From Gemmatimonadaceae bacterium (GTDB lineage: Bacteria; Gemmatimonadota; Gemmatimonadetes; Gemmatimonadales; Gemmatimonadaceae): DNA of 64,000 nucleotides. Shown here in pieces: positions 3,190 to 26,815 of the stretch. The position numbers were made by a program, and so were the translations under genes. The notes beneath the pieces were generated by a model. It worked only from the letters and a program-made list of their open reading frames with translations. It ran no database searches and was not told the DNA's origin. The stretch lies in contig JAICLZ010000001.1 of assembly GCA_025929535.1 (NCBI GenBank), positions 62,001-126,000 of the forward strand. Direction: 5' to 3'. Positions within the stretch are counted from its first letter, which is position 1. Each line of letters starts with the position of its first letter.

Positions 3190-3243
3190 AGACTTTGACG
3201 CACACATGAAGGCTTCGACTTTTCGCGCAGCGTGGCGCTCCGT

Positions 3244-4137
3244 ATGAGCTTGCCGGTGCACTGCGCCACTGAGCACATCTTCACCGTCGACGTGGAAGAA
3301 TATTTCCAGGTCGGTGCATTCGACCGTGTGGTGCGGCGAGAGGACTGGGACTCGCATCCAAGCCGCCTGGAGCATTCTGTCGGCATCCTGCTCGAGCTAC
3401 TTGCGCGCCATCACGCCAACGCCACGTTTTTCACGCTCGGATGGGTTGCCGAGCGCCATCCGTTCTTGATGCGCCGGATCGCGGAAGCCGGGCACGAGAT
3501 CGCGTCGCACGGCCACTGGCATCGTCGCGTCAACACGCTCACGCCCGACGAATTCCGCGACGACGTGCGCGTCTCCAAGGCGATTCTCGAGGAGCATTGC
3601 GGCGCGCCGGTGTGGGGCTTTCGCGCCCCCAACTTCTCCATCACTCCGGGCACGGAGTGGGCATTCGACATTCTCATCGAGGAGGGCTTTCGATACGACT
3701 CGAGCCTCTTCCCGATCAATCGTCCCGGTTACGGAAATCCGAAAGCGCCGCCGGTTCCGCATGTCATCCACCGGCCCGCCGGAACGCTCACGGAGCTGCC
3801 GCTCGCAACGACGCAGTGGCGCGGAATGCGACTCCCCGCAGCGGGCGGCGCGTACCTCCGCCATCTTCCGTTCCGCCTCATCCAGCGCGCCCTGCGCGAG
3901 CATGATGCCGCCGGAATCCCGGCGATGTTCTACATTCATCCGTGGGAGCTCGATCCCGATCAGCCGCGCATCGATGTGCCGTGGCACACGCACGTGCGGC
4001 ACTACGGTGGCCTGCGCAAAACACAGCCGCTCCTCGAGCGGCTCCTTGGTGAGTTCCGGTTCCGGAGCGTGGCGCAGTGTCTCAAGCTACCGATCTCCAA
4101 CACGAAGAGCTCCCGGGCGGTCAGCGCAGTCGAGTGA
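3244..4137 (+). CDS. Polysaccharide deacetylase, XrtA/PEP-CTERM-locus type (NodB fold)
   Basis: 297 aa. A metal-dependent carbohydrate esterase family 4 (NodB) enzyme that would remove N-acetyl groups from the EPS or its precursor. Visible motifs: FTVDVEEYFQV (catalytic and metal Asp, in the DVEEYF form typical of the DUF3473-containing subgroup), SHGHWH (metal His pair), WGFRAPNFSI (motif 3), and a late FYIHPWELDPDQPR, which is the C-terminal signature of this subgroup. The ATG at 3244 was chosen; a GTG at 3232 is in frame. It is the first gene of an operon: the FemAB start overlaps its stop (GTGA). The sigma-54 element at 3174 lies just upstream. Identification is strong; the substrate is not known. 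Confidence 0.92.
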   Translation: MSLPVHCATEHIFTVDVEEYFQVGAFDRVVRREDWDSHPSRLEHSVGILLELLARHHANATFFTLGWVAERHPFLMRRIAEAGHEIASHGHWHRRVNTLTPDEFRDDVRVSKAILEEHCGAPVWGFRAPNFSITPGTEWAFDILIEEGFRYDSSLFPINRPGYGNPKAPPVPHVIHRPAGTLTELPLATTQWRGMRLPAAGGAYLRHLPFRLIQRALREHDAAGIPAMFYIHPWELDPDQPRIDVPWHTHVRHYGGLRKTQPLLERLLGEFRFRSVAQCLKLPISNTKSSRAVSAVE

Positions 4138-6310: not shown

Positions 6311-6474
6311 CGAGCCGGAACGACCACTGTAAATATGCGCCACAGATCGACGCGCCAGTGTCGATTGCGAAGGGCGTCTCCCAAAACGCGCTTCGATTTT
6401 CATGAGACGGAATCGCCCTCTGCTGGCGATCTCCCACCGCAGGATTACCTCGCGGCATGATCGTTGGGCCTTGT

Positions 6475-6564
6475 GCCCGCGACAAAGGCAAACCCGTCAA
6501 AAGACGGGGACGCAAAGCCAACGAGGCTAAAGCGCTCAGTGTGCGCCATGCCGGTCGGGTTGCC
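6475..6564 (+). promoter_or_regulatory. Cyclic-di-GMP-I (GEMM-I) riboswitch, copy 1
   Basis: The leader holds the conserved GEMM-I core: GGCAAACCC (6487-6495), a hairpin closed by CCGTC/GACGG with an AAAA loop, GGGACGCAAAGCC (6507-6519), then GAGGCTAAA, a second stem (GCGC...GCGC) and the terminal GCCGGTCGGGTTGCC (6550-6564). These are the elements that bind c-di-GMP and dock the tetraloop in the Vc2-type aptamer. The element ends 7 bases before the Shine-Dalgarno GGAG (6572-6575) of the lipoprotein gene at 6583, so control of translation start is plausible. Whether it turns the gene on or off cannot be told from sequence. Confidence 0.93.
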
Positions 6565-6582
6565 GTGGACTGGAGACTCGAC

Positions 6583-7983
6583 TTGCGCAAATCCCTCCTC
6601 GCCCTGGCCGCGATGATCGCGGCCGCCGCCTGCACGGACGCCACCGCGCCCGAGGCAGCTCCGCCCGTCAACGCCTACCTCAAATCAGACGCCACATCGA
6701 CGATCACCGCTTCGCTCGCAGCACCGGCGTCGCTCTGGTCGGGGTACTCGACGCAATCGCATCACTGGTCGCACATCACGACGTTCATGACCGACTTCTA
6801 CTACTCGTGGACCAGCACCGAGCGCACGTGGGCGGGCCAACACTACGATGTCGCAATGTCGGGCAGTGGCGCGGCGTGGCGCGCCGTCAATCCGACGGTC
6901 AATCATCTCACGTACGCACTGCTCTGGAGCATGCTGGTAGGCTCGACGACCAGCCTCGGGACCGGCTACTACTCCGACATGCGGAGTTGGTTCGCCTCGC
7001 ACACGCAGTACTCGCTCGAGAAGGCGTTCGTGCACAGGCGAGGGGCATCCTTCAACCAGGCCGGCCGTGTCTACTACTATCGGCTGGGCACCTATCGCTG
7101 GGCCATAAACCCGAAGGACCCGGGCGCGATCGCGTACACGGTGAGCCGCGCCAAGCGGATCGCCGCGAATGACGGAGGGATTTTCTTCGACGAGGCCTCC
7201 TCCGGCGACATGACCTCGACTTTGGGCGACATGCAGGAGTTCGCGTCGCGCACCGACTACGTCGCCGCGATCGCCAACGTGCTCGCGCAGGCCAAGGCAG
7301 CCGTCGGGTCGAAGATGATCATGCTCAACACCGCCGGGTACACGACGTCGCTCGATTCCATCAACGCCCGCCGTGCCGGCGCCGTGCACCTCGAGCAGTT
7401 CAACAACTTCAAGTGGTCCGGGATGTACGGCCATTGGCGGTGGGTCACGAATCTCGCATCGCTCGGCGTGTTCGTGGACGTGGTGAGCGCCTATAGCACG
7501 AGAGACATGCCAGGGATGGCTTCGTATTACCCGCCGGGGAACTCGCCATCCAACATTCAGCGCGCCAAGCTTTGGGAGCTCGCGAGCTACTATCTGTCGC
7601 TACCCGCGACTGGCGCCAAGAACGTCGCCGTTCAGCTGGAGAACTACTGGTCGGTGCCGTATTCCACGATCTGGACGAAGGCACAGGAAGCCAACATCGG
7701 TCTTCCGGTCACCCCCATGTGGGAGTCGTCCAGAGGCACCGATCCACTCGGCCAGAGGTATGTGATCTACGCACGCGATTTCCAGCGCGCCCGCGTCATC
7801 CTGCGGATGCAGCAGGGCTGGGGCTCGCAGAACTACATGGATGCCAGCGCGATCACGATCAATCTCCCGTACGGCGAGCGCTGGATCCCGCTCAATGCCA
7901 ACGGCACGGTGCAGAGCGCGATAACCACCCTGCACTTGCGCAACAGTGAGGCAGTGATCCTGCTGCGGGGTAGCAAAATGTAG
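6583..7983 (+). CDS. Putative glycoside-hydrolase-like lipoprotein, paralog 1 (riboswitch-controlled)
   Basis: 466 aa, read from the TTG at 6583 with GGAG 7 bases upstream; an in-frame GTG at 6565 abuts the riboswitch. Signal peptide and lipobox are LRKSLLALAAMIAAAAC-TD, so it should be lipid-anchored outside the inner membrane. The mature part resembles TIM-barrel hypothetical glycosyl hydrolases (GHL-type): YYSWTSTERTW, YRWAINPKDPG, NDGGIFFDEAS (likely acid pair D-E), KLWELASYYLSL, then a C-terminal beta domain ending LHLRNSEAVILL. It shares these blocks with the proteins at 18307 and 21757. A role in trimming or releasing EPS is inference from context. Enzyme activity is not proven by motif alone. 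Confidence 0.72.
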   Translation: MRKSLLALAAMIAAAACTDATAPEAAPPVNAYLKSDATSTITASLAAPASLWSGYSTQSHHWSHITTFMTDFYYSWTSTERTWAGQHYDVAMSGSGAAWRAVNPTVNHLTYALLWSMLVGSTTSLGTGYYSDMRSWFASHTQYSLEKAFVHRRGASFNQAGRVYYYRLGTYRWAINPKDPGAIAYTVSRAKRIAANDGGIFFDEASSGDMTSTLGDMQEFASRTDYVAAIANVLAQAKAAVGSKMIMLNTAGYTTSLDSINARRAGAVHLEQFNNFKWSGMYGHWRWVTNLASLGVFVDVVSAYSTRDMPGMASYYPPGNSPSNIQRAKLWELASYYLSLPATGAKNVAVQLENYWSVPYSTIWTKAQEANIGLPVTPMWESSRGTDPLGQRYVIYARDFQRARVILRMQQGWGSQNYMDASAITINLPYGERWIPLNANGTVQSAITTLHLRNSEAVILLRGSKM

Positions 7984-18306: not shown

Positions 18307-20313
18307 TCAGATGGTGCGTTGCTTGATCAATATCGCGGCCTCTGCGTTCCTCAATTTCACCGTTGTAACGGGCGCCCCGAGGGTGCCGTCCGCGTGCAGG
18401 GGAAGCCACGTTTCGCCCGTTGGCAGCGGCACGTTGACGGCGGAGGCGTCGTCGTAGCGCTGAGTACTCCATCCTGTCTGTGGCCGAATGATGACGAGCG
18501 CCCGATCGAAATCGCGCTCGTATACCGCCACGTGTTGTCCCACGGGATCAGTGCTCGCGATTCCATCGGAGACCTGCCGGCGCACCGCGATCGGATGTCC
18601 GATGTTCGCCTCCTGCGCGGTAATCCACACCGTCGAGAAGGGACGACTCCACTCGTTGACCAGCTGCAGTTGCAGCTTCTCCGGAGACCGCGGCACCACC
18701 ATATAGTAGCTCGCGAGCTCGGCCATCTTGATTCGGCGGTATGCGCTGTCCGGCCCGGCGCCCAATCGCGGCGACACCCCGCTCATGTCCGAATAGTCGA
18801 TCGCATCCACGAAGTTCACCGACGCCGATGCGCCGAGCAGTCTGTCGATCCAGCTCCACGTAGCGGGCAGGCTGCTGTTGAGCGGATTGTTCGACTTCTC
18901 CATGTGCGTGGCTCCTGCCGCTGACACGTTCGCGAAATCCGGATCGAAGGCATACATGGCGGTGTTCGGCTGCAGCGCCTTCGAGCCTACGGCGCTCTTG
19001 AGAGTGCGAAGCAGCGCGACGTAGTCCGTGTAGTACTGCCCCGTGGGCGGCCAGGTGGTGCCGCTATTCGTGTATTCGCTCGACCTGCCTGTCGCGTCCA
19101 CCAGGTATCTCGAAAGATCGCCCGATCCCTGCACATCGATGAACAAGCCGTCCTCATTCGCCGCGAGCCTGCGAAAGCGATCCGTTTGATATGCGATGAG
19201 ACCGGGATCTCCGGGATTGATGATCCAGATGTACGTGTCCCATCCGAACGGTCTGAGTCGATTCGCGAAAACAGCCGGTTGTCCGGCCCGGTGCAGGAAC
19301 GCCGTCTCGATGTTGTACTGGGTATGGGTCGCGTACCATCGCACCGCGTCGTCGTACCACTGGGTGAACGGCGCGCCGCTCGAAGGCGTCGATGCTGGCA
19401 ACAGCGTGCCCTGAAGAAGCACGTACGCGTAGTGCTGCACGCCCGGATTTATGGCCTTCCACGCTGGCCCACTTCCCGACATGGCCAGGTCGTAATGCTG
19501 CGCAGCCCACTGCCGCTCAGTGCTGTTCCATGAGTAGTAGAAATCAGTGACCGCGGTGCGGATGTGTGGCCAATGCGGAGAGACAGTACTGTAGCCTCCG
19601 TACAGCGATCCCGCGGACGTGGGCGGAACGGGCGGAGGCGGAGGTGGAGGGGCGGGCTGATTCGGCGTCTGTGGCGGAGGCGGGTGCGTGGCGCTCGCGC
19701 CCACGACCGTCAACTGCGCCGTCGCCTGGTTCGAGGCCGTGTGTGCAAGAATGTTCACCGAGCCGGTCGCGACTCCGGTGACCATGCCTGTGGAGTCGAC
19801 CTGCGCCACTGATGGATCTGCGCTCGTCCAGGTGACGTGAACACCCGAGAGCGCCTTGCCGTTTACGTCTGTCACGGCGGAAAGAAACTTCAAGTTGCTG
19901 CGTACGGAGACTTGCGCCGTGCCCGGGCTCACTGCAACCCAGTTCGGCGCAGGTGGCGTATTGGATACGATCACGAATGCCGATGCACGCTGTCTGCCCG
20001 AGGCGATCGTGATCTGGGCACTGCCGATGGAACGAGCGCTCACGGTGCCATCGCTCGATACCGCAGCGATGGTGGAATCGCTCGAGTTCCACTGCTGGGG
20101 CTGACCGTTCACGTCCCGGCCGGTCGAGTCCAGCATACGGACGGAGAGATGAAGTGTCTGGCCAGGCGGTATGGTCGGCGAGGCCGGCGACACGAGTATC
20201 CATCTCGCGAGTGACGTGGGCGTGTTCGAGGACGACGAGGGGTCGGTCATCGCCGAACACGCGAGTAACGTGGCGCAGCTCGCCAACGAGAGCGCAAGGC
20301 GTGTGATCAACAT
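18307..20313 (-). CDS. Putative glycoside-hydrolase-like lipoprotein with two Ig-like domains, paralog 2
   Basis: 668 aa, ATG 20313 with AAGGA 9 bases upstream. Signal and lipobox: MLITRLALSLASCATLLAC-S. Residues about 45-125 and 130-215 are two BIG2-type Ig-like domains (SIGSAQITIASGRQRASAFV; VDSTGMVTGVATGSVNI). A Pro-rich linker follows (PPPPQTPNQPAPPPPPPP), then the same catalytic-like domain as at 6583: YYSWNSTERQWAAQHYDLAM, IWIINPGDPG, EDGLFIDVQGSG, MAELASYYMVV, VKLRNAEAAILI. The paralogs have DE where this one has DV, so a presumed acidic residue is missing. The gene follows the second GEMM-I riboswitch. Confidence 0.75.
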   Translation of the reverse strand: MLITRLALSLASCATLLACSAMTDPSSSSNTPTSLARWILVSPASPTIPPGQTLHLSVRMLDSTGRDVNGQPQQWNSSDSTIAAVSSDGTVSARSIGSAQITIASGRQRASAFVIVSNTPPAPNWVAVSPGTAQVSVRSNLKFLSAVTDVNGKALSGVHVTWTSADPSVAQVDSTGMVTGVATGSVNILAHTASNQATAQLTVVGASATHPPPPQTPNQPAPPPPPPPVPPTSAGSLYGGYSTVSPHWPHIRTAVTDFYYSWNSTERQWAAQHYDLAMSGSGPAWKAINPGVQHYAYVLLQGTLLPASTPSSGAPFTQWYDDAVRWYATHTQYNIETAFLHRAGQPAVFANRLRPFGWDTYIWIINPGDPGLIAYQTDRFRRLAANEDGLFIDVQGSGDLSRYLVDATGRSSEYTNSGTTWPPTGQYYTDYVALLRTLKSAVGSKALQPNTAMYAFDPDFANVSAAGATHMEKSNNPLNSSLPATWSWIDRLLGASASVNFVDAIDYSDMSGVSPRLGAGPDSAYRRIKMAELASYYMVVPRSPEKLQLQLVNEWSRPFSTVWITAQEANIGHPIAVRRQVSDGIASTDPVGQHVAVYERDFDRALVIIRPQTGWSTQRYDDASAVNVPLPTGETWLPLHADGTLGAPVTTVKLRNAEAAILIKQRTI

Positions 20314-20337
20314 ATCCAAAGTCCTTGTAGGCTCTTC

Positions 20338-20432
20338 GGGCAACCCGACCGACATCGTGTGCCGCGCGGCACACCTTAGTCTCGTTGGCTTTGCGTCCCC
20401 GTCTTTCGGCGGGTTTGCCGTTGTCGCCGGGC
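20338..20432 (-). promoter_or_regulatory. Cyclic-di-GMP-I (GEMM-I) riboswitch, copy 2
   Basis: Reading the minus strand: GGCAAACCC, a stem with a GAAA loop, GGGGACGCAAAGCC, GAGACTAAGG, a strong stem GTGTGCC/GGCACAC, and the terminal GTCGGTCGGGTTGCC (20338-20354). The last block is nearly identical to that of copy 1. The element ends 24 bases before the ATG of the lipoprotein gene, with the Shine-Dalgarno AAGGA between. The rest of the gap, 20433-20647, holds the promoter region and no gene that I can support. Confidence 0.93.
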
Positions 20433-20647
20433 GCGAGCCCGCGCGATCATGCCGTACTATGTGGTAGTCGGAGGATCGTGTTTGTAGACGGCCACACGCA
20501 ATCCAAAGTCACGCCGAATTTTCGCGCTGACTCGATGGTAAATCGCGGCTGCACGGCGGCTGCTGATTCGAATGATTCCACTCGCCTCACTCGCAGAGTC
20601 ACACAGTCGCGCGAGTGTAACGCAACGATTCACGTCCGGACGGAGAA

Positions 20648-21760: not shown

Positions 21761-23490
21761 TCGACGAAGATTGCAGCGTCGACGTTTCTCAATTTCACGC
21801 TCTGCACGGGCGGCCCGAGCGTTCCATCTCGATGTAGGAGACGCATCGGCTTCGGCAGGGGAATCTCGAGTGCGGTATCGTCGCCGTACACCGTGGGATG
21901 CCAATCGATTGCGGGGCGCATGAGGACGAGCGCGTGCTCGAATTCGCGCGCGTAGATCCGGTATTTCTGGCCCTTGGGGTCGGAGCCACTCGCGATCACA
22001 TGTCTCGCCCGAAGCGGATGGCCAACGTCGACTTCGACTGCGCGCGCCCATGCGGTATCGGGCCGGACGTTCCAGTAGTTCTGCTGATCGAACGAAAGCC
22101 GCTGCGGGTCCGGGCCAACCGCCATGTAATAGCTCGCGAGCTGCGCCATCTGACCTCGTTCCCTGGGCGAGCCGTACATCCCTCCGTTGAAGGTGGGGCG
22201 ATTCTTCGGGACGCCCGCCCATTCGGTGTACGAGATCGTGGCCACGAATTCGGTGTACACGCCAGCGGCCAGCAAATGGTCGATCTCCCTCCAGCGCTCC
22301 TCGGTTCGATCCGTGAACGGATAGTTGGTTCTCTCGAGTTGAGCTCCGCCGCCGGCCACGACGATCGCCGAGTCGGTTGGCGTCCAGTATTCCGCAATGT
22401 TGATCAGCAATATCCGCGGCGCCATCGCGGCGTGCGCCTGCGCGAGCAGCTCGGCCTCCGAGGCCAGATACGCTGCGCCCGTCGCGAATTCGTCCGTGGG
22501 TTTGATGGCCCCGTACATTGGGCCGCCAAATTCGTCGAGAAAGACGCCGTCATATCCCCGCGCGATGCGAGACAGCCGATCGGCCTGATAGGCGCGCGAG
22601 CCTGCATCGCCGGGGTTGATCAGCCAGCGCCAGGACTCGTTCTTGAATGCGACACGATGCGTCGAGTCGTGTCCGCCCCGATGCAGAAATGCCGACTCGT
22701 AGTCGTATTTCGGATGCGCCGCATACCACTTTTGCATGTCGGGGGTGAACGACGTGTTCAGATTCGATGGCCTGTTATTGGCTTCGGCCTGAACGACTTC
22801 GTACTGCAGTGCGTAGGGATACGTGTGAATCGTCGGATTCAGGCTTCGCCAGGCATCCATTGGCCCGGACATGATCGCGTCGACTCGCGGGGCGAGGAAC
22901 GCAAGCGTTGCCTCGCGATCCTTCGGCGAGGCGTACGCGGAATAAAAGTCGGTGTAGAAAACACTGATGTGTGAAAAGTGTGGTGACCGCGCGGAGCCGC
23001 CCTTGGCCGGTGCGCGCGGCCTCCCGCTGTCTTCATGAACTGGCGCGGCAACATCGGTTCGTGCGACCGGCGCAGGAACATCGGTTCGTGCGACCGGCGC
23101 AGCAACATCGTTGTGCGCGACGGGCGTCTCGCGAGCGGGCGGATAGACGCTCACCCGCATCGAGGCGAGACTCGATCCGACCCGAGCCGTGATGCCGGTA
23201 ACCCCGGGTTCCGCAGCGGTGATCTCTCCGTGCGCGTCTACCCGGGCAATCGAGGGATTGTCCGACATCCAGATGACGGAGTCCCGAACGGCGTTGCCGG
23301 CCCGATCGCGGACCACCGCTCGGGCGCTCGCTGTTTGTCCGACTTCGAGCGATCGACTGGCGGAGTCGAGCGTCACGACTACTTGTCGCTGGGCTGCGCC
23401 GCGGGCGCAGCTGCCAAGGAGAAAAAGGGCAAGCAGCAGCCAGAAAAACGTCGCCGGAACTGCAGAGCGCCTTTTGAAGAGATGTGGCAG
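21757..23490 (-). CDS. Putative glycoside-hydrolase-like lipoprotein with one Ig-like domain, paralog 3
   Basis: 577 aa if read from CTG 23490. The frame from GTG 23376 lacks an export signal and cuts into the first strand of a BIG2 domain. Upstream in the same frame lie FFWLLLALFLLGSC-ARG, a clear signal peptide and lipobox, but no ATG, GTG or TTG before the stop near 23590. CTG 23490 with GAGG 7 bases upstream is the best candidate. Domains: one BIG2 domain, a threefold VARTDVPAP-type repeat, then the shared catalytic-like domain (YTDFYSAY, RWLINPGDAG, YDGVFLDEFGG, LASYYMAVG, VKLRNVDAAIFV). No GEMM-I element was found upstream, unlike the other two paralogs. Confidence 0.7.
   Translation of the reverse strand: MPHLFKRRSAVPATFFWLLLALFLLGSCARGAAQRQVVVTLDSASRSLEVGQTASARAVVRDRAGNAVRDSVIWMSDNPSIARVDAHGEITAAEPGVTGITARVGSSLASMRVSVYPPARETPVAHNDVAAPVARTDVPAPVARTDVAAPVHEDSGRPRAPAKGGSARSPHFSHISVFYTDFYSAYASPKDREATLAFLAPRVDAIMSGPMDAWRSLNPTIHTYPYALQYEVVQAEANNRPSNLNTSFTPDMQKWYAAHPKYDYESAFLHRGGHDSTHRVAFKNESWRWLINPGDAGSRAYQADRLSRIARGYDGVFLDEFGGPMYGAIKPTDEFATGAAYLASEAELLAQAHAAMAPRILLINIAEYWTPTDSAIVVAGGGAQLERTNYPFTDRTEERWREIDHLLAAGVYTEFVATISYTEWAGVPKNRPTFNGGMYGSPRERGQMAQLASYYMAVGPDPQRLSFDQQNYWNVRPDTAWARAVEVDVGHPLRARHVIASGSDPKGQKYRIYAREFEHALVLMRPAIDWHPTVYGDDTALEIPLPKPMRLLHRDGTLGPPVQSVKLRNVDAAIFVE
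23050..23130. repeat. 27-base tandem repeat inside the paralog 3 gene
   Basis: Units begin at 23050, 23077 and 23104 with AACATCG and have period 27, so nine residues per unit (VARTDVPAP-like). The first two copies are almost identical and the third has diverged. It forms a Pro/Ala linker between the Ig-like domain and the catalytic-like domain. Confidence 0.85.
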
Positions 23491-23701
23491 GAGAGTGCCT
23501 CGCGGCGTAAATGGAATCCGCTGGATGGCGCCGCTTGCTGAGCTCGAGCGCGATGAGCTGGGCCGGATACCCGTTCTACACTCGAAGGCCCGCTAGCGAG
23601 CGCCTGTGAGACCGTCTCGCAAGATACAGGATGCTCACTCTACGCGAAGCTGAAAGTAATGCTGCGATTTGCGCGCCGCCGAATGTGAATGGCTGATTCC
23701 G

Positions 23702-24562
23702 CTACCAGCCGCTCCGCCGAAACAGCATCACCGGCACGGTCTTCACCATGATCTTGAGATCCTCGGCCAGGCACTGGCGCTCGAGGTATTCGAGATCGTA
23801 GCGGATCTTCGCGCGCACATCATCGATCGAGGTGTCGTACGAGTGATTGATCTGCGCCCAGCCGGTGATGCCGGGGCGTGCGCGCTGGCGGAACCGGTAG
23901 GTCGGCAGATCTTCGCGCAGGCGGACGAAGATGCTCGGACGCTCGGGGCGAGGGCCGACGATGTTCATGTCGCCTCGAATCACGTTCACGAGCTGCGGAA
24001 GCTCGTCGAGACGCGTGCGACGCAGGATGCGGCCGAGCTTCGTGACGCGCGGGTCGTTTCGCGTGGCCCAGACCGCACCCGAATTCCGCTCCGCGTCCGC
24101 GCGCATCGTGCGGAACTTGTAGATGGTGAAGATCACGCCGCCGCAATCCTGCTTGCGGCGATCGTACAGCGCATCGACGTGCGTCGACCGGCGGTCCAGC
24201 CCAACGCGCGTCTGCGAGTAGACGGCCGGACCCTTGGACGTCAGCTTCACCGCAATGGCGACCACCACGATGACCGGCGAGAGCGCGACCAGCGCGAGCG
24301 ATGCCAGCGCGACGTTGACGACCCTGTTCGCAATCTCGGACCTGTCGCGCGGTACTGCAGTGGGCATCGCCGGCGCAATGCGCCGATCGGCCCGTCGCAC
24401 GACTTCGATTCCCATCGGTGCGTCCACACCGGCGGGCGCGACGATCCGCGTTCCACCGTTGCTCCGTCTCCGATTCGGTCCGCGCTCAACCAGAGGTTGC
24501 TCGCCTGCCTGCGGGATGGTCCACACTTTCGCTGCTCCTCCTTCGTTTCGTCCGTTGCTCAT
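23702..24562 (-). CDS. Initiating sugar-phosphate transferase (short polyprenyl-phosphate type)
   Basis: 286 aa. Transfers a sugar-1-phosphate to undecaprenyl phosphate and so starts EPS unit assembly. One hydrophobic membrane hairpin (NVALASLALVALSPVIVVVAIAV) precedes the cytoplasmic catalytic domain: SKGPAVYSQTRVG, FTIYKFRTMRADAE, LGRILRRTRLDELPQLVNV, RGDMNIVGPRPERP and RPGITGWAQIN. All hallmarks of WcaJ/PglC-type transferases are there. The N-terminal 70 residues are polar and variable, and the four-helix N-terminal part of long WbaP-type enzymes is missing. ATG 24562 overlaps the stop of the export gene (ATGA). Confidence 0.94.
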   Translation of the reverse strand: MSNGRNEGGAAKVWTIPQAGEQPLVERGPNRRRSNGGTRIVAPAGVDAPMGIEVVRRADRRIAPAMPTAVPRDRSEIANRVVNVALASLALVALSPVIVVVAIAVKLTSKGPAVYSQTRVGLDRRSTHVDALYDRRKQDCGGVIFTIYKFRTMRADAERNSGAVWATRNDPRVTKLGRILRRTRLDELPQLVNVIRGDMNIVGPRPERPSIFVRLREDLPTYRFRQRARPGITGWAQINHSYDTSIDDVRAKIRYDLEYLERQCLAEDLKIMVKTVPVMLFRRSGW

Positions 24563-25398
24563 CGGTGTCGGGTCAAGACGACTGCCGTGCTTATCAAGCC
24601 GGCGGAAATTCCAACGATAGATGCAATCATGCCCCAGTTCGTGTGATGCCGCTCACCTATCAGGATTTGATCGCCCGGTCGGATGTTGAGCTGATCGAGC
24701 GTTGCTCCTTTCGCAACTTCCTGGCCGAGCAGTTGTGATGAATAGATTACGTCCTCGCCACGTTTCACCTGCGTTCTATCCACATCTGCAGTGGCGGTCG
24801 GACCACCCGCGATCATGATCGCATCGGCGAGCGCGATATCCGCAGGCAACTGGTAAAAGCCGGGTTTCGCAACCGAGCCCATCACCGCCACTCGCACGAG
24901 AGACGTCGTCTGCACATCCGGGCGCTTGATGTAGCGGGTGAGTTGCGTCGTCAGATAATCCTGCAGCTCCGAGCGCAGCACGCCCTGCAGCGATATGTCG
25001 GGCATGTTCTCCAGCCTGATCATTCGTCCCGCGCGCACCGTCACGGTATCGCTGATGGTGGAATCGCCGCGCACGGAGAGGAGGATGCGGTCGCCCACAT
25101 CGAAGTCCCCGTCGCGCAGCCGCGCGCGAATCGTGGCCGCCTGCATCTGCTTCTGCTGCCTGGTCGAGGCGTCTGTCGCCTTGGCCGCGTCTGCCTCCGT
25201 GGTGACCGCGAGCTCCTGTAACTGTGCTCGCGTGGCCTCGGTGTGCGCCTGATCGCGCGGTACCGGGGTCATGATCATGGATGGAGCAGGCGCCGAGTGA
25301 TGACACGCGCTGACACCAATGGCCAGAACCGCAACGCTGACGATCCCGCGTGCCGAGCTTTGCAGTAGTGCGAGGCTGCTACGATATGATGTGCTCAT
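24559..25398 (-). CDS. wza: Polysaccharide export lipoprotein (Wza/OPX family)
   Basis: 279 aa. Signal peptide and lipobox: GIVSVAVLAIGVSAC-HH. A Poly_export domain is seen at residues about 90-170 (FDVGDRILLSVRGDSTIS, DTVTVRAGRMIRLENMPDI, LQDYLTTQLTRYIKRP), then a SLBB-like segment (VRVAVMGSVAKPGFYQLPADIALADAIMIAGG), and a C-terminal hydrophobic helix (MIASIVGISAGLISTAVVL). The coiled, polar insert between residues 45 and 85 is rich in Ala, Thr and Gln. It would form the outer part of the export channel with Wzc. ATG 25398 was chosen; an in-frame ATG at 25413 is possible. A sigma-54 element lies about 108 bases upstream. Confidence 0.88.
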   Translation of the reverse strand: MSTSYRSSLALLQSSARGIVSVAVLAIGVSACHHSAPAPSMIMTPVPRDQAHTEATRAQLQELAVTTEADAAKATDASTRQQKQMQAATIRARLRDGDFDVGDRILLSVRGDSTISDTVTVRAGRMIRLENMPDISLQGVLRSELQDYLTTQLTRYIKRPDVQTTSLVRVAVMGSVAKPGFYQLPADIALADAIMIAGGPTATADVDRTQVKRGEDVIYSSQLLGQEVAKGATLDQLNIRPGDQILIGERHHTNWGMIASIVGISAGLISTAVVLTRHR

Positions 25399-25505
25399 GT
25401 GCGGGGGGATCATTGCACCAGCCGTGCTAGAGGTGAGAGGAATGCCATCTGGCGATAAATCTTTGCGCCACGGTGACTTGGCGCGCGAAGCCAGCTGAGC
25501 GAAAG

Positions 25506-25521
25506 AGCATGGAGAGTGCCA
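25506..25521 (-). promoter_or_regulatory. Sigma-54 -24/-12 promoter for the export/initiating transferase operon
   Basis: The minus strand reads TGGCACTCTCCATGCT: perfect -24 hexamer, GG-N10-GC spacing and a -12 box ATGCT with one mismatch. The predicted start near 25495 gives a leader of about 95 bases before ATG 25398. The rest of 25399-25864 holds an inverted repeat and no gene I can support. Confidence 0.62.
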
Positions 25522-25585
25522 TCTGTGGCACCCTCTCCACAATAGGGGGCGCCCCGGGCACACCTCGAGAGCGGCCGGTCGCGTT

Positions 25586-25640
25586 GGTGGAAAGAAATGA
25601 ATCACATAGAGTTGAACTCAGCTGTGATACTCATTCCACC
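25586..25640. promoter_or_regulatory. Imperfect 55-base inverted repeat, possible activator-binding site
   Basis: Outer arms GGTGGAA / TTCCACC, inner arms ATCACA / TGTGAT, and a perfect centre GAGTT-G-AACTC, all nested about one axis with small loop differences. It lies 65-120 bases upstream of the sigma-54 element at 25506, the usual place for an NtrC-type enhancer. It also sits upstream of the divergent regulator gene at 25865. The sequence GTGATGTG follows at 25647-25654. Confidence 0.4.
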
Positions 25641-25864: not shown

Positions 25865-26815
25865 ATGACGGAAGCAGGTCTCACCTCACGACCACCTCTC
25901 ATTCTGCTCGCCAACGAGCACGAGTGGGCCGCGCGTTCCCTGGAAACCATTCTCGGACCGCACGGCTACGCCGTGCTTCGCGCGTACACGGGCCGCCAGC
26001 TCCTGGGTCTCGTTCGCAGTGCGCAGCCGGATCTGATCATGGTCGATGTGCGGCTTCCCGACATGCGCGGCGTCGATCTCTGCCGCGCTCTTCGGGACGA
26101 TCCGCACTTTGCCGAGGAAACACCGGTCATCCTCACGAGCTCGGGCACGCCCGAGCGGAAGGAGCGGCTCGAGGCCTTCAAGGCAGGCGCCTGGGAAGTG
26201 GTGAGTCAGCCACTCGATGCCGAGCTGCTGCTGCTCAAGCTGGATGCGTACATGCGCGGCAAGCGCGCCGTCGACAGACTGCGCGATGAGAGTCTGCTCG
26301 ATCAGGCGACGGGACTCTACAACATGCAGGGCATGGTGCGCCGCGCGCGCGAAATGTCCGCGGATGCGCAGCGTCTGCGCGCGCCGATCTCGTGCGTCGC
26401 GTTCACTCCCGTCGCCACCACGGAAACCGAGCCGACACCGCCCGCGATCACCGAGATCATGATCGAGCGGCTCGGCGCGATAGTGCGCCGCACCGGACGC
26501 GCATCGGACGCGATCGGCCGGCTCGGACCCACGGAGTTCGCGATCATCGCGCCCGCCACGGAGGAGCCGGGCGCGATCCGCATGATGGAGCGCCTCGAGG
26601 CGCAGCTGTCGGACATGATGACGACGCAGAACGGGATCGCGCAGCGCGTCGAGCTGCGTGCGGGCTACTGCTCCGTCTCGGAGGGCGGACAGTCCGAGGT
26701 CGATGCAGTCGAGATGCTGCTTCGCGCGAATACGGCGCTGCGCCAGGTGCGCGACGCGGAGCGTGGCGATCAGCTCCGCGCGTTCGACAGCGCTCCGGTC
26801 AGGTTCGCCCTGTAA
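25865..26815 (+). CDS. Response regulator with degenerate GGDEF-like output domain
   Basis: 316 aa. Residues 10-130 form a REC domain (PDLIMVDVRLPDMRG with phospho-acceptor Asp61; VILTSSG; the late Lys position reads SQPLD rather than KP). A short helical linker follows (RDESLLDQATGLYNMQGM, where DxLTGL-like sequences usually open GGDEF domains). At the active site the GG[DE]EF motif is replaced by LGPTEF (IGRLGPTEFAIIAP). Known diguanylate cyclases need this motif, so catalysis is unlikely and a sensory or scaffold role is more probable. The gene is divergent from the wza operon and overlaps wzc 3' ends by 17 bases. Confidence 0.82.
   Translation: MTEAGLTSRPPLILLANEHEWAARSLETILGPHGYAVLRAYTGRQLLGLVRSAQPDLIMVDVRLPDMRGVDLCRALRDDPHFAEETPVILTSSGTPERKERLEAFKAGAWEVVSQPLDAELLLLKLDAYMRGKRAVDRLRDESLLDQATGLYNMQGMVRRAREMSADAQRLRAPISCVAFTPVATTETEPTPPAITEIMIERLGAIVRRTGRASDAIGRLGPTEFAIIAPATEEPGAIRMMERLEAQLSDMMTTQNGIAQRVELRAGYCSVSEGGQSEVDAVEMLLRANTALRQVRDAERGDQLRAFDSAPVRFAL

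Follow-up and report, generated by a model that had tools for sequence, protein, structure and literature searches.

A c-di-GMP-I riboswitch ahead of a predicted glycosidase-like surface lipoprotein, one case of an arrangement seen across Gemmatimonadaceae

Two GEMM-I riboswitches, on opposite strands of one locus, each lead a lipoprotein gene of the same protein family in the window analysed here (the whole stretch of DNA, 64 kb). The original prediction took the two pairs as an argument that c-di-GMP control is essential to the family's role. The locus raises the question of what the second switch, RS2, controls, and whether such control belongs to the protein family or to a wider set of surface proteins. 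We propose that RS2 is a c-di-GMP sensor in the gene B 5' leader and that, through it, the signal controls translation of the encoded surface lipoprotein, with an ON switch slightly preferred. The hydrolase-like TIM barrel of this protein would probably trim or remodel, at the cell surface, the exopolysaccharide of the surrounding XrtA-type locus. The pair would be one instance of a Gemmatimonadaceae arrangement in which genes for surface lipoproteins of many kinds have a GEMM-I aptamer ~15-34 nt ahead of the start codon. For the account as a whole, in which c-di-GMP acts through GEMM-I on translation of a matrix-acting surface glycosidase within a lineage-wide arrangement, we estimate a probability of about 0.72. 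Against it stands gene C, a paralogue that presumably does a similar job without a riboswitch.

Two aptamers and three paralogous genes

An Rfam scan of the 64-kb window returned two aptamers, RS1 and RS2, and no other family above threshold. The aptamers and the three genes of the family are:

20336-20429, minus strand: RS2, c-di-GMP-I (GEMM-I) riboswitch aptamer, full-length match to Rfam RF01051
20318-20326 (approximate), minus strand: Shine-Dalgarno region (AAGGAC), read from the sequence, within the 22-nt linker from RS2 to the start codon
18307-20313, minus strand: gene B, predicted outer-membrane lipoprotein with two Big_2 domains, a Pro-rich linker and a C-terminal TIM-barrel glycosidase-like domain (ATG, lipobox, Big_2, AlphaFold2/Foldseek)
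6478-6568, plus strand: RS1, GEMM-I aptamer (RF03167, 65.1 bits; RF01051, 75.2 bits)
6583-7983, plus strand: gene A, lipoprotein with a TTG start, lipobox AAAAC and the same C-terminal domain without Big_2, led by RS1
21757 to ~23440 (the upper end depends on the choice of start codon and is approximate), minus strand: gene C, third paralogue with Big_2 and the same domain, without a riboswitch

RS2 was confirmed as a canonical c-di-GMP-I aptamer. It matched RF01051 at 67.7 bits (gathering score 35, model positions 1-87, E 4e-11), and the element predicted at 20338-20432 proved to be real, on the right strand and within 3 nt of the Rfam span (20429-20336). The predicted stem GTGTGCC/GGCACAC was found as the outer portion of the second long hairpin, where RS1 pairs with different letters. 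The stem lies within a covarying set: when 53 lipoprotein-leader aptamers of this lineage were aligned, double-sided changes that preserve pairing were present at 14 of 21 consensus pairs, which bears out the claim of a conserved structure. The near-identical terminal block that the two aptamers were said to share is also present, but it equals the universal consensus 3' part of the aptamer and is not specific to this pair. RS2 resembles the RF01051 class in its full-length match, its covarying helices, its equivalents of G20 and A47 and its position ahead of a surface-protein gene.

Gene B starts at the ATG at 20313, 22 nt past RS2, with AAGGAC in between. Its product begins as a bacterial lipoprotein does, with a hydrophobic signal and then the lipobox Cys (lipobox LLACSA, MLITRLALSLASCATLLACSA), and continues with the Big_2 region (5.5e-20) and a C-terminal domain of ~420 residues. 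This domain is 48% identical to that of the RS1-led gene A product, so a second riboswitch-gene pair of one family does lie on the other strand, as had been claimed. The third paralogue, gene C, lies ~1.4 kb upstream of gene B and was absent from the original prediction. Its domain shares 37% identity with gene B and 34% with gene A, and no GEMM-I was found upstream of it in 22900-24700.

Ligand of the aptamers

The equivalent of G20 (Vc2 numbering) was G in 52 of 53 lineage aptamers and that of A47 was A in all 52 readable ones, with both bases kept in RS1 and RS2; the C92 equivalent is placed less certainly than these two, owing to an offset of one in the numbering. Position G20 chooses between cyclic dinucleotides (PMC9262584, PMC6274999). 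Since the G20 and A47 equivalents are kept, c-di-GMP is the expected ligand of the lineage aptamers, and RS2 would be expected to bind it.

RS1 passes the threshold of the c-di-GMP-I-GGC family RF03167 (65.1 against 59 bits), and its cmscan E-value favours this variant family although the variant-defining base is missing. At CGCAAA the GGC consensus replaces the A by G; RS1 keeps the A and reads GACGCAAAG. With its higher bit score on RF01051, this led us to reject RS1 as a GGC variant. The ligand might still be 3',3'-cGAMP or another dinucleotide, given that GEMM-I variants of the cGAMP kind exist (PMC6274999) and that RF03167 is the best family for RS1 by E-value. The G and A at the two key positions of both aptamers, and the bit scores of RS1, argue against such a ligand, which we regard as highly improbable.

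Distribution of the switch within the protein family

Genes A, B and C are the only members of the family in this genome. In a sample of 395 genomes from the phylum, 10 contained the family, and all of these belong to the Gemmatimonadaceae, the bacterial family of the source. The order of A, B and C is kept within the genus; in one relative (G001, contig 153), for example, A lies at 36.1 kb on the plus strand, and B and C at 52.2 and 55.7 kb on the minus strand. Among genus members with readable upstream DNA, an aptamer precedes every A-type (5/5) and every B-type (4/4) gene. These nine cases are what would be expected if c-di-GMP control were a defining, essential property of the protein family. 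The C-type genes speak against it, as none of the five (gene C and four relatives) has an aptamer, and so do the ten members from other genera, all of which lack a correctly placed and oriented one.

In a tree of 25 members, all aptamer-bearing ones fell into one clade (99/99), and riboswitch-less members lay outside it, save for one pair from another genus (G025, G369) that sits inside the A/B clade without an aptamer. Aptamer presence requires two to three changes on this tree. Because of these changes and of the riboswitch-less C-type and other-genera members, the switch, as read from upstream regions and phylogeny, is tied to the A/B branch, has been lost or gained more than once and is not a family property. 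The prediction had itself named homologues elsewhere without any riboswitch as the finding that would speak against it, and the survey of other genomes found them. We therefore reject a family-wide dependence on c-di-GMP and consider essential control very unlikely. The earlier interpretation is partly supported: the paired riboswitch-genes and the compensatory changes stand, essentiality does not.

Fold and predicted activity of the C-terminal domain

The C-terminal domain had no match in Pfam or NCBIfam and no PDB sequence match below E 0.5. Its AlphaFold2 model (pLDDT 85.8, pTM 0.88) is an eight-stranded alpha/beta (TIM) barrel followed by a beta-sandwich. The top solved neighbours in Foldseek were a GH66 dextranase (9e-13) and a GH168 endo-1,3-fucanase (1e-12), with probability 1.00, TM ~0.5 and 10-16% identity. 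The domain is like these enzymes in having a TIM barrel and a C-terminal beta-sandwich, and probably also in its Asp on strand 4 and Glu on strand 6. It is unlike them in its low identity and TM score and in matching no PDB chain or Pfam family by sequence; with GH66 and GH168 it shares the fold (Foldseek), not sequence-level membership. Every family sequence that covers these residues has Asp157, where strand 4 ends, and Glu236, on strand 6. Matched by strand, they would correspond to the nucleophile and acid/base of GH66 and the clan-D barrels.

Fold similarity alone does not imply activity, and with identity to solved enzymes so low the domain could be a TIM barrel without catalytic function, one that binds polysaccharide and holds the exopolysaccharide in place instead of cutting it. 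An acidic pair at the ends of strands 4 and 6 that is invariant where covered is, however, presumably what a GH66- or clan-D-like hydrolase would have, and we hold a purely binding barrel to be unlikely. The gene B domain is thus described as glycoside hydrolase-like, with a hydrolase activity that the model suggests. A glycosidase-like family that lies outside the family libraries and inside an exopolysaccharide locus offers a concrete enzyme-substrate pair to test.

The exopolysaccharide locus and the supply of c-di-GMP

The surrounding locus is an XrtA-type exopolysaccharide cluster with genes for Wzx, a Wzy-type ligase, Wzc, an export protein, a sugar transferase, glycosyltransferases, an XrtA deacetylase and FemAB. 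The features used here are:

3232-4137, plus strand: XrtA-system polysaccharide deacetylase (TIGR03006, 322.7 bits, above cut-off)
23702-24562, minus strand: initiating sugar transferase (PF02397, 1.8e-59)
24559-25605, minus strand: polysaccharide export protein of the XrtA/PEP-CTERM type (TIGR03027, 8.5e-15, below its cut-off; PF02563)
25865-26815, plus strand: response regulator with a GGDEF domain (motif GPTEF), amid the exopolysaccharide genes

A hydrolase role within exopolysaccharide loci is discussed in PMC9894940. Gene B is comparable to PelA-type hydrolases in encoding a predicted hydrolase within an exopolysaccharide cluster, and unlike them in being a riboswitch-led surface lipoprotein with a Big_2 stalk and another barrel family. 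As nine GGDEF domains are encoded in the genome, five of them strong, c-di-GMP should be available to it. Judging from its GPTEF motif, the response regulator within the locus is probably inactive and unable to make c-di-GMP.

Association with surface lipoproteins across Gemmatimonadaceae

The source genome has seven GEMM-I elements. The five besides RS1 and RS2 lead unrelated secreted proteins: a protein with six Big_2 domains and a beta-helix, one with a ricin-lectin domain and a beta-helix, a subtilase with a PKD domain, an HYR protein and an M15-type peptidase. With these five, and with mostly varied lipoproteins behind the aptamers of Gemmatimonadaceae, the idea that the switch is particular to this protein family did not hold.

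GEMM-I was present in 40 of 60 related genomes. The start codon behind each aptamer was chosen from Shine-Dalgarno, ATG and length only, blind to any lipoprotein signal. A lipoprotein start followed the aptamer directly in 63 of 94 cases overall and in 51 of 70 in Gemmatimonadaceae. Lipoprotein signals occurred at 4 of 82 ordinary genes and at 22 of 475 random positions. The sampled genes are partly related and the events not independent, but the gap to the controls is far larger than kinship likely explains. The distance from aptamer to start codon was 15-34 nt in 48 of the 51 Gemmatimonadaceae lipoprotein cases.

On the evidence of these genomes, the pairing of GEMM-I with lipoproteins is a general cell-surface programme in Gemmatimonadaceae and not special to gene B. 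We give even odds to the broader proposal that GEMM-I is a near-standard leader for surface lipoproteins in Gemmatimonadaceae, with one aptamer set at a near-constant distance from lipoprotein genes of many unrelated kinds and in many cases preceded by a shared element, CGGCAKGATCGC. One c-di-GMP level would then govern translation across an entire surface proteome, and a hitherto unclassified family of exopolysaccharide-acting glycosidases would be part of it. No report of a c-di-GMP lipoprotein regulon in Gemmatimonadaceae was found among the open-access papers searched. The riboswitch itself is ordinary; its distribution outlines a c-di-GMP regulon, so far undescribed, in a soil group that is abundant and little cultured. 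The main interest lies in this lineage-wide regulon and in the unclassified glycosidase-like domain, more than in the riboswitch pair as such.

Mode of control

The well-studied GEMM-I switches Cd1 and pilM are transcriptional (PMC9262584), and RS2 and its relatives could likewise act on transcription, by termination or Rho access. RS2 differs from those two examples in lying 22 nt from its start codon without a terminator. The stretch from aptamer to ATG is too short for an intrinsic terminator, and a search in the sense direction at both RS1 and RS2 gave no terminator-like site, an observation that bears on intrinsic termination and not on Rho. With the gap as short as it is in most of the Gemmatimonadaceae cases, a transcriptional switch seems rather unlikely. 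The most natural view is that the switch acts on translation initiation, since the leaders have neither room for nor sign of a terminator before the start codon, and we infer a translational mechanism.

When 52 leaders were folded in two states, one with the aptamer formed and one with P1 blocked, exposure of the Shine-Dalgarno region did not change consistently (mean difference -0.04, like that of linker shuffles). By type, A-type leaders leaned ON in 4 of 5 cases and B-type leaders were neutral. In A-type leaders the 3' strand of the aptamer, GGGUUGCCG, is able to pair with the Shine-Dalgarno region (YGGAGACUC), and this pairing would make them ON switches. We slightly favour ON as the direction of the switch.

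A shared upstream element and further aptamer arrangements

Both aptamers of the window lie behind a 12-base element near CGGCAGGATCGC:

20443-20454, minus strand: RS2 upstream element, CGGCATGATCGC, matching CGGCAGGATCGC at 11 of 12 positions at the usual offset
6453-6464, plus strand: RS1 upstream element, near CGGCAGGATCGC

Of 95 GEMM-I leaders, 29 carry the element at a distance of 24-37 nt upstream of the aptamer, with a match of at least 10/12 (14 exact); among 1900 shuffled upstream stretches it occurred in 6. A short GC hairpin is frequent between the element and the aptamer, and the pattern CGGCAKGATCG occurs at ~34 further genome sites besides the aptamer leaders. As a sigma-54 promoter this pattern was rejected, its GG-to-GC spacing being 7 where 10 is required. 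No sigma-70-like promoter was found, and the element fits no sigma-70 spacing.

Some relatives carry GEMM-I in tandem, mostly ahead of lipoprotein-like genes: G036 has three at ~157-nt spacing (L112 and L114; contigs 3 and 36), while G053 (contigs 1, 176 and 246) and G051 (contig 17) have tandem pairs. Other aptamers in relatives (L076, L080, L115, L141) lead small proteins with a DIDASGLG-like motif that, by eye, resembles STAS anti-anti-sigma factors. On contig 78 of the source genome (L003), the gene behind GEMM-I encodes a surface subtilase that carries inhibitor and PKD domains. Comparable pairs recur in relatives (L091, L094, L099, L100, L104), where the aptamer has U for C close to its 3' end.
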